Shown: one piece after another, positions 23,973-55,560 of the stretch
How the letters are laid out: every line of letters starts with the position of its first letter
How positions within the stretch are numbered: position 1 is the first letter of the stretch
From: Glycocaulis sp.
Lineage (GTDB): Bacteria; Pseudomonadota; Alphaproteobacteria; Caulobacterales; Maricaulaceae
Assembly (NCBI GenBank): GCA_022565665.1
Contig: JAIUMI010000003.1
Coordinates: forward strand, 186,001 to 250,000
Length of the DNA: 64,000 nucleotides
Reading direction: 5' to 3'
The notes under the pieces: model-generated
The model's database searches: none
Told to the model about the DNA's origin: nothing
Seen by the model: only the letters and a program-made list of their open reading frames with translations
Program-made: the position numbers and the translations under genes

Positions 23973-26510
23973 ATGACGCTTGAGAGACGCCTGACCGAAA
24001 AGGGCAAGGCCCCGCTGTCCGGGCAGGCCATGGAGCCGCGCGCCGCCGGAATGACAGATCCCGATGCGCTGAATGTCCATGCGCTGACCCTGAAGGCCCC
24101 GGCGGACTGGCCGGACAGCGCCGTGACGGGCCTCGCCCTGCTGGCGGCGCTGAACGCGGACGGCGATGCAGGCGCGATCCTTACCGATCTCGCCGCGCGC
24201 CTTTCCAAGGCCGCAGGCTTTGCCGCTGACAGCATCGAGGCAGCGGAGCTTCTGGCGAGCATGATCGCGCGCGAGGCTGCGCCCCACCCTGCCCTCTGGC
24301 ATGAGGACAGGCTGGAGTTTCACGTCGAAGAAACGCTGGCCAGCGGCCCGTTCGAGGCCGGCGCCCTGCTCTCCCTCATCAACACCGCCGCGATGGCCGG
24401 TGCCGCCAGCGATGTCGGCGCGCGCATCGTGCGCGACCGGCTGGAAGCGGTGTCGCTGGCCTGCATGAACTGCGATGGCAGCGAGGACGAGTGCTTTGAT
24501 CCGCGCCGCAACCGGGCGCTTGCCCGCTCCATCCGCGCGGCGCGCCGGGACGGTGTGCCGGACGCGATGATCGAGCGCGCCATCGCCCGTGCCCGTCAGG
24601 GGCTGGACGATATTGAGGACGGGGCGGGCTTCGTGCCCGAAATGCCGGTCAATCCCGTCATCGCCCTGCCCGGTGCCATGATCGCCGATGAAAGCACGCA
24701 ATCGCGCGCCTTCCTCACCGATCTCGCCACAACGATCTGGACGCACGGCCAGCCCAGCTTACGCTTTGAAGACGCCGCGCCCACTTTACCGGCCGTTACG
24801 TTGAATCTGGCGCGGTTTGCGGGCGATGAGGCGGGTCTTGCCCATGCGGCCACGCTCTGGGGCCAGGTGGCCAAGGCGTGTGGCGGCACGCTCGTCCTTG
24901 CCGGACTATCCGGCATTATCGCGCTCGCAGGCCTTGCCTATGATAGCGAGGAAGCGCGCGCGCTGGCCACGAAGCTGATCGGCATCGCCAAAAGTGCCTC
25001 GCCCGCGCCGGTCAGCATGGAGGCAGCCCCCGCAGCCTTGGCCGCCTTCCTCGATATCGCGGCGAGCGGCGCTGATCCGCTTGTCGGCCTGAAGGATGCG
25101 CATGGCGCGCCTCTGCCCCTCGTCAGCGCCGTTTTAAGCCCGCTGGAGAGCCATGCGCGCGAAGCGGCACTCGCACACGCCTTTGGCGCGGGAACGCTCT
25201 CCAGCCTCAATCCTGACTGGCTAAAGGCCCTTTGTGAGGCCGGTCTTGATGAGGCCGCGCTGGCACGTGTCGAAACCGCCATTGCCGAGGGCGCACCAGT
25301 ACGCCACGCCTTCAATCGCTGGACGGTGGGCGATGATATCGCCAGGCGCTGCGGGCTCGCCCCCGAACGGCTGGAACAGGCGGGCACAAGGCTTCTGGAA
25401 GCCTTTGGCGTCTCCGAGCTGGAGATTGCGGCGGCGGAGAACTGGGTGCATGGCTCGGGCGAGCTTTACGCCTGCGAGGCGCTGGACGATGGCCTGCGCG
25501 CCGTCTTCGCGCCTGCAAGCGTGGAAGCGCGCCTTGCCATGGCGCAAACGGTGGAAGCCGCGCTTGGATCGCCCTGCGGCCTTGCCCTGACCTTGCCGGG
25601 CAGCGCCACGATTGATGATGTGGCAGGCCTGATCGTCTCTGCCGCACGCAGGGGGCTGAAAGGCTTGCGCATCCGGCGCGAGGGCGAGGCGCTCTATGAT
25701 CTTCTGGCCACCGTCGAGTTTGAAAACGCCGACCGGGGCGAGCGCCCCGCCTTTGCGGAAGAGCGCGTCGTTGAGCGCGTGGTGGAACGCACGGTCGAGC
25801 GCGCTGCCAGCCGCCGCAAGCTGCCCGACCGGCGCAAGGGCTATATCCAGAAATCGACCGTGGGCGGCCACAAGGTCTATCTGCACACTGGCGAGTTTGA
25901 AGACGGCGAGCTCGGCGAGATTTTCATCGACATGCATAAGGAAGGCGCAGCCTTCCGCTCCCTGATGAACAATTTTGCCATCTCCATCTCCATCGGCCTG
26001 CAATACGGCGTGCCGCTGGAAGAATATGTCGATGCCTATGTGTTCACGCGTTTTGAACCCGCCGGTCCGGTGGAGGGCAATGACTCCATCAAGCACGCCA
26101 CCTCCATTCTCGACTATCTCTTCCGCGAGCTGGGCGTCTCTTATCTCGGCCGGTCTGACCTTGCCCAGACCGATGCGCGCAAATCCGACCCCGGCGGCAT
26201 CGGCGCAGGCGTGGCGCAGGAGAAGATCATCAGCAGCGAGGAAGCCTCGCGCCTGATCTCCAAGGGCTTCTCGCGCGGACAATTGCCGGACAATGTGGTG
26301 GTGCTGGGCAGCCAGCCGCGCAAAGCCGCTCCGCCGCCTGCGCCTGCATCCGGTTCGGCGCGCAAGGGCGATGCTTCACCCGCTACCCGGCCCGAACCTG
26401 TGTATTCAGGCGAGCCCTGCCCGGCCTGCGGCCACTTCACGCTGGTCGAAGCGGGCGCGGAGCTTTCCTGCGAGGCCTGCGACTGGCAGGGGCCATTGCC
26501 GATCTCTTAG
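23973..26510 (+). CDS. NrdJ-derived TSCPD protein lacking the RNR catalytic core
   Basis: This protein has about 845 residues. The last ~230 (from about 616, [20 protein letters not shown]) closely match the C-terminus of alphaproteobacterial B12-dependent class II ribonucleotide reductase: TSCPD region, [16 protein letters not shown] and [15 protein letters not shown] blocks, ending in a Cys pair module CPACG...CEACDW. Upstream, [34 protein letters not shown] and [20 protein letters not shown] still align with the NrdJ barrel. The barrel's Cys/Asn/Glu active-site motifs are not found and the protein is far shorter than NrdJ. It is therefore probably a pseudoenzyme. It is divergent from DUF2200. 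The start could also be ATG 23961. Confidence 0.75.
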
Positions 26511-26700
26511 TTCCGCAGCCCCTCCGGGCTGCGATGTTCCGCGCACTGGCGCGGGCGGCCGGTCGGCCTTGTGGCCCCTGACGGGGCCGGACTGTCTCCC
26601 CGGCGCGATAGCGCCGCAAGCGCGACCGCGCGTCCGAGCCAATGCGAGGCGCGAAGCCCGGATGGGCTGAGCACGATAAAAAAGGCCCATCCCTTGCTTG
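26507..26700 (+). repeat. Structured intergenic element, copy A
   Basis: This is the first of four related elements. The core is TTAGTTCC, then helix 1 GCAGCCC-ctcc-GGGCTGC (26515-26532), GATGTT, then helix 2 CCGCGC-actg-GCGCGG (26539-26554), followed by GC-rich stems such as GGCCCC-tgac-GGGGCC. The consensus left end (TTNGTTCCGCA) overlaps the TAG stop codon of the NrdJ-like gene. A GGATGGGC/GCCCATCC inverted repeat closes the right end. Confidence 0.75.
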
Positions 26701-26744
26701 CACGTCCTTGAACGCCCGCAGGGGCCGGATGAGGATGTGCCGCA

Positions 26745-53938: not shown

Positions 53939-55216
53939 TTAGACTTTCCTACCAAGAAGTAACTCACGTGCGGCAATATCGAGCCTCTGGCCCAGCCCGG
54001 CGCGGCGTGAACTTCGCACCCTGGCCGCCGAGATGATGGCGCTTGCCACCATGCCAAAGGCGAGGAGGAGAATTAGCGCGGCGACGATGAAATACTCCAG
54101 CGCAGGGCGGGTGAGCGAAGGCGTTCCGTCGACCGCGCCGGCCAGGTCCAGCGCATCGCTGCCTATCAGATGAAACACGGCCAGCGTGCGCGGCCCCGCG
54201 CTCTGGGCAATCTGGCGCAGGCGGGCAATGTCCCTGGTGTCACCGGCATGGGCGATGAGGCGTATGGCGGCCGCGTTCGAGGTCAGCTGCGCGGTCAGGG
54301 CGACATCGCGCGCGATGACCTCCAGCTCCCGCCGGTCAAGCAGTGCGAGGTCCTCGGCCAGCTCCGCCGATACACGCCCTGCTGCCAGCCCCGCCCGCAT
54401 CAGGCGTGCGCCCTGCCCGGCGGCCAGCGTCAGCCCGGCCTGTCCGGCAGAGAGCCCGATCTCGGCCAGCGCGCACGGCAATGTCTTGCCGTCAGCACAA
54501 TGACGCGCGCGTGCAGGCGCATCCGCCAGCAGCCATGCTTCACCCGCAAGCCCGTTTCCGGGCAGGCTGGCCAGATTGAACGCGCCGGTCTCATGTCCGG
54601 AGAAGAAGCCGGTGCTCGCCTGATCAAGAAGCGGATAGAGATGACGCGCACGCGAAAGCCGGGCGCGCACGCTCCGGGGTGCCAGTTCCAGCGAGGCCGG
54701 TGTGTCGGGCAGGGTGGATCGGGTGCCCAGCGCCTGCTGCCAGACACGCTCCAGCTCCCCTGCCCGCACCCAGACCGGCAGGGCCCGCAAGGCCGCCTCA
54801 GTGCGGTAGGGATCCAGCCCGCGCCCCTCGCCCCAGGCAAAGCTGGCATAGCGTTCGCGCCCGGCCACGTCCTCAAACGCATGGGCAAGGCTCAGCGCCA
54901 GTTCGGTATCGGGCGGTCCTGACCGGCGCGGGCGTAACGCAGCCTCTATTTCACGCTCCCACAAGCTCGCGGCGGCAGGCGCGTCGGCTGCCAGTGCGGC
55001 CAGCGCGGCGCTGATGCGTGCTGCACGGTCCTGCGCGGCGGTGCCGGTATCAAGCTGTTGCAGACCGGCAAACGCGGCCAGCCCGGACGCCATGACCAGC
55101 GCGCCGAACACAGCAGGACGAAAGACTGTTGAAACACCCCGCCAGATGAACCAGCCCGCACGGCGCACGAGGCCCGCATCGCGCGGAGCCCTTACGCGCC
55201 TTGCGCGCGCGGCCAT
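53939..55216 (-). CDS. Uncharacterised two-helix membrane protein with helical periplasmic domain
   Basis: The protein has about 425 residues with one transmembrane helix near the N-terminus (PAVFGALVMASGLAAFAGL) and one near the C-terminus (FIVAALILLLAFGMVASAII). Between them lies a roughly 330-residue Ala/Leu/Arg-rich helical region (TPR-like heptads, two Cys at CADGKTLPC). A basic cytoplasmic tail follows. I recognise no family. The start is uncertain: ATG 55216 lacks a ribosome-binding site, while an in-frame TTG at 55252 follows AAGGGGG. It lies next to the hfs locus, but a link is speculative. Confidence 0.6.
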   Translation of the reverse strand: MAARARRVRAPRDAGLVRRAGWFIWRGVSTVFRPAVFGALVMASGLAAFAGLQQLDTGTAAQDRAARISAALAALAADAPAAASLWEREIEAALRPRRSGPPDTELALSLAHAFEDVAGRERYASFAWGEGRGLDPYRTEAALRALPVWVRAGELERVWQQALGTRSTLPDTPASLELAPRSVRARLSRARHLYPLLDQASTGFFSGHETGAFNLASLPGNGLAGEAWLLADAPARARHCADGKTLPCALAEIGLSAGQAGLTLAAGQGARLMRAGLAAGRVSAELAEDLALLDRRELEVIARDVALTAQLTSNAAAIRLIAHAGDTRDIARLRQIAQSAGPRTLAVFHLIGSDALDLAGAVDGTPSLTRPALEYFIVAALILLLAFGMVASAIISAARVRSSRRAGLGQRLDIAARELLLGRKV

Positions 55217-55362
55217 GCGCTGCAGATCATGTGGCGAGCCCCTGCGTGCCAATTGCGACCCCCTTCCCTCACGCCAATCCAAGCATGGGCGGGAGGATGG
55301 GGGAAACCCCTCCCGTTGTCATCCTCCGGCCGCGAAGCGGTCCGGGGGACCCATGCCTCTTT

Positions 55363-55560
55363 TGGTTCCGCAACGCATCCGCGTTGCGATGTTCCGCGCA
55401 TTAGCGCGGGCGGCCGTTCGGCCTTGCGGCCCCATGCGGGGCCGGGCTGACACCCCGGCGCGCAGCGCCACTAGCGCGATCCCCGATCAAGTCGGGGACA
55501 GGCCTTTGCACCCGCAGCGTGAGCGAGGAGCGACGCACGGATGTGCGCAGCATCAGCAAA
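55363..55560 (+). repeat. Structured intergenic element, copy D
   Basis: TTTTGGTTCC, helix 1 GCAACGC-atcc-GCGTTGC, GATGTT, helix 2 CCGCGC-atta-GCGCGG, then GGCCCC-atgc-GGGGCC and a CCCCGATC/GTCGGGG palindrome. The tail GCCACTAGCGCGA ... CCCGCAGCG ... GAGCGA is shared with copy C. It ends at the GST stop codon. A separate hairpin-rich segment, CATCCTCCGGCCGCGAAGCG onward (55321-55355), precedes it. Confidence 0.75.

Follow-up and report, generated by a model that had tools for sequence, protein, structure and literature searches.

A mosaic palindromic repeat family of the Glycocaulis group that has probably spread as hairpin-bearing DNA

Four related elements, copies A to D, lie in a 64,000-nucleotide (nt) stretch of DNA from Glycocaulis sp. 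(GenBank assembly GCA_022565665.1, contig JAIUMI010000003.1, positions 186,001 to 250,000, forward strand), hereafter called the window. We conclude that they probably represent a Glycocaulis-group family of short, non-autonomous repeats (about 150 to 200 nt), each a mosaic of palindromes, spread as hairpin-bearing DNA; its mobility is something we infer. An earlier, sequence-only reading of the window had offered a non-autonomous mobile repeat, a structured element of the 3' untranslated region (3'-UTR) and a protein-binding site as possible identities, and among these the mobile repeat is best supported, by the many copies in the genus, the inverted ends and the species-specific presence or absence of copies. 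Each unit has two hairpins in inverted orientation flanking internal hairpins that can be swapped, similar to REPINs (inverted doublets of repetitive extragenic palindromic [REP] sequences) and bacterial interspersed mosaic elements (BIMEs).

The four copies share one layout, consisting of a T-rich start, TTCCGC, hairpin 1 (hp1), the constant GATGTTCCGCG, and hairpin 2 (hp2). All were found where the sequence-only reading had placed them, on the + strand with starts at 26505, 35909, 37820, and 55360, and its description of the helices proved accurate. Helix 1 is GCAGCCC/GGGCTGC in A and B and GCAACGC/GCGTTGC in D, with an NTCC loop in each (CTCC in A, ATCC in B and D), the pair closing helix 2 is C-G in A and D and A-T in B and C, and the reported extension of helix 1 in copy C is a 22-nt insert in the loop between D-type arms. 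The shared orientation of the copies, also part of that reading, is true in the window but is a local chance, because the exact cores of the whole genome occur in both directions (9 forward, 4 reverse).

From 28 distinct left-end sequences we built a covariance model, R1. Across 41 sources (0.78 Mb), R1 gave 72 matches, 49 strong and 23 weak, and 13 of the 23 weak matches lay on the opposite strand, 5 to 99 nt beyond a strong left end, at the place of the right end. The two ends are therefore related, the right one being a diverged form in inverted orientation, and the right-end hairpin of copy A is assigned to this form on the basis of the inverted matches of the model to the right ends of other copies. 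The left end reads TTTNG-TTCCGC-hp1-GATGTTC, with a T-rich beginning, while the right end consists of a hairpin, usually with a GGAT loop, followed by GGAGCATCA-nn-AAA or similar and an A-rich end. Between the two lies a variable set of GC-rich hairpins, and long and short types occur. Among the left flanks, endings in ...CCCATGCCTC or ...AACCCAG are common. A table of associations between left-end and right-end alleles was set aside, since the right-end pattern also matched an internal hairpin.

Within the window, GATGTTCCGCG occurs four times exactly and eight times with at most one mismatch (mean of 2.8 in shuffles, 8 being reached in 1 of 100). Across the same genome, a search for the exact two-part core gave 13 copies, versus none for a reversed-pattern control. 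A looser core pattern was present in 6 of 137 family genomes, namely, five of the six genomes of the genus and one genome of another genus. With 150 candidates scored per genome and E values up to 0.01, R1 matched 35, 45, 48, 56, 38, and 27 times in the six Glycocaulis-group genomes, a total of 249 that takes in right ends and weak matches (one genome, G011, has just 10 at E values up to 1e-5). Family-wide, at E values up to 1e-4 and with stricter filters, 23 of 136 genomes had matches; outside the genus, E values below 1e-10 were limited to five genomes of another genus of the family (g15), a complete copy being present at locus L216, and some of the weak out-of-genus matches that were read (L220 and L221) look unrelated. 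The covariance-model search proposed by the sequence-only reading thus found further copies in the same genome, in the genus, and in the g15 relatives. The comparison with described repeat families yielded no match: the sole Rfam hit in the window to reach its gathering score was a tRNA at 37997-38078, and no description of this repeat family or of the loop cassette treated below was found among the titles and abstract openings listed from the open-access literature.

Copies differ in their presence between species. Orthologous places were sought for the 49 copies among the fetched loci, and 12 were displayed. The place of copy B is occupied in genomes G000, G008, and G010 and empty in G009 and G012, G011 being too diverged to read, and the place of copy A (site S11) is empty in G012, where 29 nt stand in place of 198 in the window. 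At eight further sites (S3 to S7, S12, S15, and S16), one species has the element where another has unrelated sequence, a fragment (in G009, at S7), or nothing; site S9 is occupied in both species. Two sites initially seemed to hold inverted elements, and inversion in place was considered and rejected: S1 is read as one copy nested in inverted orientation inside another and S2 as different copies, separately inserted at one place. As a separate observation, about 1 kb of other, possibly coding sequence stands at L182:11398-12391 (G008) where G010 and G000 hold the repeat.

If the family is mobile DNA, the unit would spread in single-stranded or cruciform form, its hairpins recognized by an enzyme that would now be absent, supplied in trans, or of a type other than a Y1 transposase. 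Pairing would persist since it is the hairpins that move and are exchanged, and gene 3' ends would be favored as the places where an insertion is least harmful; the elements may also affect mRNA 3' ends, as a secondary matter. Several results weigh against this reading. At the displayed sites no clear target-site duplication was seen and the insertion boundaries are unfixed because the flanks are too diverged, and no transposition event was seen in the sites compared. The Y1 transposase (PF01797) was found in none of the six genus genomes, near-complete ones included, in a search that did not extend to other transposase families. Ten of the 23 weak R1 matches have no left end opposite them, and the right end is recognizable by motif in just 25 of 49 copies, the rest being truncated or of another type. 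The idea that the element always lies inside other REP dimers was dropped, the flank-to-flank test being weak (5 of 25 versus a shuffled mean of 2.3 and maximum of 6). Finally, among 22 distinct full-length copies (one entered twice), mismatched pairs on the element strand were more often G.T than A.C (15 versus 6; P = 0.078), which leans toward RNA.

The change of both helix arms together, which the sequence-only reading had noted, stands in part. In 28 distinct left ends, none with a long insert in hp2, compared with 500 shuffles, 99.5% of cells were paired (90.7% in shuffles) and the covariation score was 0.215 (0.072 in shuffles), with no shuffle reaching either value. However, both sides changed in just 3 of 14 pairs, each between two main states, and 324 of the 500 shuffles reach 3; with so few two-state pairs and a count not above shuffles, the covariation is largely allele swapping inside the genus. 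In the 77 fetched copies matching the pattern, four hp1 alleles are fully paired (39, 26, 2, and 2 copies) and the remaining 8 copies carry one non-Watson-Crick pair, while all four combinations of the hp1 and hp2 alleles are present (32, 15, 11, and 9 copies). The two rare hp1 alleles, one at L149 and L174 and the other at L217/L224, show that the two hp1 pairs can change apart and remain paired. Inside the genus, the pattern looks like an exchange of whole modules.

A different account would make the element a structured RNA of 3' untranslated regions, for example, one protecting mRNA ends, with helices kept by selection on RNA; we regard this as unlikely. Its location fits. Neighboring genes were classed with our own codon-usage gene caller, in stretches mostly chosen around copies, and 45 of 49 copies could be assigned (two overlap a called gene, and two have no gene on one side): 24 lay between convergent genes, 17 between tandem genes, and 4 between divergent genes, versus 59, 236, and 111 of all 406 gaps of at least 50 nt in the same stretches. 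The convergent excess (binomial P of about 1e-9) and the divergent deficit (P = 0.002) are computed with shared descent ignored, and one of the four divergent copies is copy C, beside a tRNA gene that is invisible to the gene caller. The four window copies also fold better than shuffles (z of -2.7 to -4.5), and the G.T excess in full-length copies points the same way. The 3'-end placement offered by the sequence-only reading is supported. Against the RNA account, the element shows no strand preference, with 7 tandem copies on the gene strand and 10 opposite. The other strand of copy D folds as well as the element strand (z of -3.3 versus -2.7; -4.0 with DNA parameters), the 49 left ends show G.T 2 versus A.C 5, opposite to the full-copy count, and the element is absent at orthologous genes in some species. 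The argument that covariation proves RNA was set aside as unproven, given 3 of 14 left-end pairs changing on both sides and a split G.U test.

It is also quite improbable, in our judgment, that the repeat is a true REPIN whose REP-associated tyrosine transposase (RAYT, a Y1 transposase) was recently lost. REPINs are inverted REP doublets associated with RAYTs (Bertels and Rainey 2011, PMC3116915), and the Glycocaulis repeat resembles them in its two inverted end hairpins, variable spacer, compensatory hairpin changes, high copy number, and extragenic location (PMC3116915), to which 3' sites and a terminal TAG serving as a stop codon can be added. Two inverted REP-like hairpins are present here, as seen from the inverted weak R1 matches and the right-end motif, and a Y1 protein occurs in 25 of 136 family genomes (5 of 14 control genomes match). 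Against a lost RAYT stands the absence of Y1 from the six genus genomes, with which membership among RAYT-moved REPINs fails, and at 30 fetched Y1 loci of the family R1 found nothing convincing (10 matches at E values up to 10, the best 0.0045), so that no RAYT flanked by the repeat was seen. The repeat further differs in its length of 150 to 200 nt, its several internal hairpin modules, the cassettes in its loops, and the lack of a GTAG tag: no unpaired GTAG was found at the stem end beside the left-end hairpin in alignments of 28 left ends and 12 full copies. One right-end variant, noted beside this comparison, reads GCGTAGCA (L197).

The REP classes named for CGTC and GTAG tags offer a second comparison. 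CGTC REPs are defined by an unpaired CGTC at one end, a stem starting with AT, and a CCA tail (Di Nocera et al. 2013, PMC3733652). Like the Glycocaulis repeat, REPs of these classes lie behind genes and between convergent genes, form dimers in opposite orientation, and carry a terminal TAG that serves as a stop codon, some dimers are inserted within palindromes, and the CGTC families of Alphaproteobacteria have no known transposase, their way of spreading being open (PMC3733652). The Glycocaulis left end has neither tag and its stems do not start with AT (the CGTC form was absent from the same 28 left ends and 12 full copies); a CGTC does appear in the reversed right end, but it spans the end of the stem, and the AT start is missing. 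Loop-inserted 22-nt cassettes do not figure in the available portions of that account (PMC3733652). REP-type repeats in related bacteria have already been counted in print, with 3,707 REPs in Hyphomonas jannaschiana reported by RepRanger (2025; PMC12306157); identity with these is not comparable because the portions of the source at hand give no motif for that species and its main text does not name Glycocaulis.

The BIMEs of enterobacteria and the BOX elements of pneumococci are mosaics of exchangeable palindromic modules in intergenic DNA, a feature that the Glycocaulis repeat shares with them. The repeat makes up a new genus-level family that functions in the manner of REPINs or BIMEs, although the tests for a RAYT and for the REP tags went against it. 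Because its copies are closely similar, vary in presence between species, and occur in a genus with no Y1 protein, the family gives a testable case for how REP-like repeats with no known transposase spread.

Two further explanations fare worse. Descent from a classical insertion sequence as a miniature inverted-repeat transposable element (MITE), with terminal inverted repeats TTTAG...CTAAA plus end hairpins, would suit the inverted ends, small size, and high copy number and is very unlikely, as neither a gene-bearing full-length parent nor a target duplication was recognized in the copies read (transposase families other than Y1 were not searched). An intrinsic terminator, suggested by GC-rich hairpins behind genes, is mostly refuted and scarcely credible: a scan over copies B and C found 5 terminator-like sites, none within either copy, and in the aligned copies a T-run precedes the first hairpin and an A-run follows the last, so that neither strand has a T-run after its end hairpin.

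Returning to the reading of the family as mobile, modular DNA, the insert in copy C is one of a set of small hairpin cassettes of 22 to 24 nt with the pattern T[CA]CCCG-loop-CGGG[GC]ACAGG. In copy C the cassette, TCCCCGCCTTCGCGGGGACAGG, is set between CGT and CCGCG of the hp1 loop, and the same kind of cassette occurs in hp2 of other copies; the copy B orthologue in G008 has a 22- to 23-nt cassette in its hp2 loop, while the orthologues in G000 and G010 are without it. Ten host-hairpin patterns were tested in the fetched DNA. Seven occurred both empty and filled (47/4, 44/10, 34/1, 58/4, 18/3, 6/2, and 13/3), two were empty only (22 and 40), and one was absent. Six of the seven are secure, because the single filled case of hp3 is one of the four of another internal hairpin, hpN, seen from the opposite strand. 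Three patterns, hp1 and those of two other REP families, are consistent with 22 nt inserted exactly between T and C.

Across the family, the cassette pattern had 74 matches in 14 of 136 genomes, versus a reversed-pattern control with none in the genus and four elsewhere. Each cassette was excised in a script and called as loop borne if the junction fell in a hairpin loop of 12 nt or less with a stem of 5 or more. By this measure, 56 of 74 junctions lay in loops (one overlapping pair in genome G124 is counted twice), compared with 10.95 (maximum, 14) for same-size excisions 46 to 180 nt away and 22 (maximum, 31) for re-dealt right flanks. Independent events are fewer than 56 because some cases are copies of one insertion, and the unrelated host hairpins, counted by eye, number about a dozen. 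Under a strict rule allowing no stem mismatch, 13 of 30 cassettes pass, versus 1.05 at random and 1.33 at nearby positions. The first count made, 23 of 30 in loops versus a mean of 8 (maximum, 14) with re-dealt flanks, is not relied on, because its loci were mostly chosen for the element; the family-wide set is used instead. Outside the family the cassette is rare, with matches in 10 of 386 other genomes of the class that were searched (reversed control in 3), and 10 of 23 such cassettes lay in loops versus 3.5 nearby (maximum, 8), 9 of those 10 being from one genus.

We suggest, tentatively, that the cassette might itself be mobile and enter the tips of DNA hairpins, mostly with loops of 3 to 5 nt and with no recognized target duplication, so that the repeats would grow hairpin-in-hairpin by loop-directed insertion or template switching in at least two alphaproteobacterial lineages. 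The cassette may insert as such, or template switching or gene conversion may carry copies of it from loop to loop. If true, growth by taking smaller hairpins into their own hairpin tips would be a novel mode of change in repeats of this kind. Hairpin loops would then serve as insertion sites for mobile DNA units that would rank, to our knowledge, with the smallest, and the process would account for the way such repeats preserve pairing even as their sequence is altered one module at a time.

Table 1. Repeat copies and their parts in the window. Positions are window coordinates; copy starts come from the left-end covariance model and hairpins from direct reading.
Feature	Position	Strand	Basis
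Copy A, long type: left end, internal hairpins, right end	26505..26680	+	Direct reading and model
Copy A hp1, allele GCAGCCC-CTCC-GGGCTGC	26514..26533	+	Direct reading, alignment of left ends
Copy A hp2, C-G closing allele	26539..26554	+	Direct reading, alignment
Copy A right-end hairpin AGCCC-GGAT-GGGCT, inverted relative of left end	26655..26668	+	
Copy B, short type, in gap between trigger-factor gene and clpP	35909..36064	+	
Copy B hp1, allele GCAGCCC-ATCC-GGGCTGC	35918..35937	+	Direct reading
Copy B hp2, A-T closing allele	35943..35958	+	Direct reading
Copy B right-end hairpin GACGGGGC-CTCC-GCCCCGTC	36031..36050	+	Direct reading
Copy C, beside tRNA gene, right end of different type	37820..37992	+	
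Copy C hp1, GCAACGC-allele arms with cassette in loop	37829..37870	+	
Copy C 22-nt hairpin cassette TCCCCGCCTTCGCGGGGACAGG, inside hp1 loop	37839..37860	+	
Copy C hp2, A-T closing allele	37876..37891	+	Direct reading
Copy D, long type, downstream of GST-like gene (55566-56288, -)	55360..55560	+	
Copy D hp1, allele GCAACGC-ATCC-GCGTTGC	55369..55388	+	Direct reading
Copy D hp2, C-G closing allele	55394..55409	+	Direct reading
Copy D 23-nt cassette TCCCCGATCAAGTCGGGGACAGG in internal hairpin (hpN)	55480..55502	+	
Copy D right-end hairpin CGCAC-GGAT-GTGCG	55534..55547	+	Direct reading

The cassette of copy D was scored as not in a loop in the excision test, its host stem being short and altered there. 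The TTAG of copy A supplies the stop codon of a reading frame at 23808-26510 (+), right at its end. The best NCBIfam match of this 900-amino-acid frame was to B12-dependent ribonucleotide reductase, with only the C-terminal part of the reductase models matched and scores far below the cutoffs. The trigger-factor gene next to copy B (36083-37675, -) encodes a Lys/Ala-rich, histone-H1-like C-terminal tail, and its coding region varies in length between species.

Other repeats accompany the family. At three apparently different loci in three species (L174:10914-11066, L187:4886-5037, and L191:9845-9994), the element stands between GGAACCCAG... and ...CTGGTTTCC/CTGGGTTCC arms of another repeat, as if the composite had been amplified as one unit. 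A second dispersed inverted repeat, of the GTCCTTCGAGACGGC...GTCTCGAAGGACGAGG type, lies in the window at 40545-40660 and has dozens of matches in relatives.

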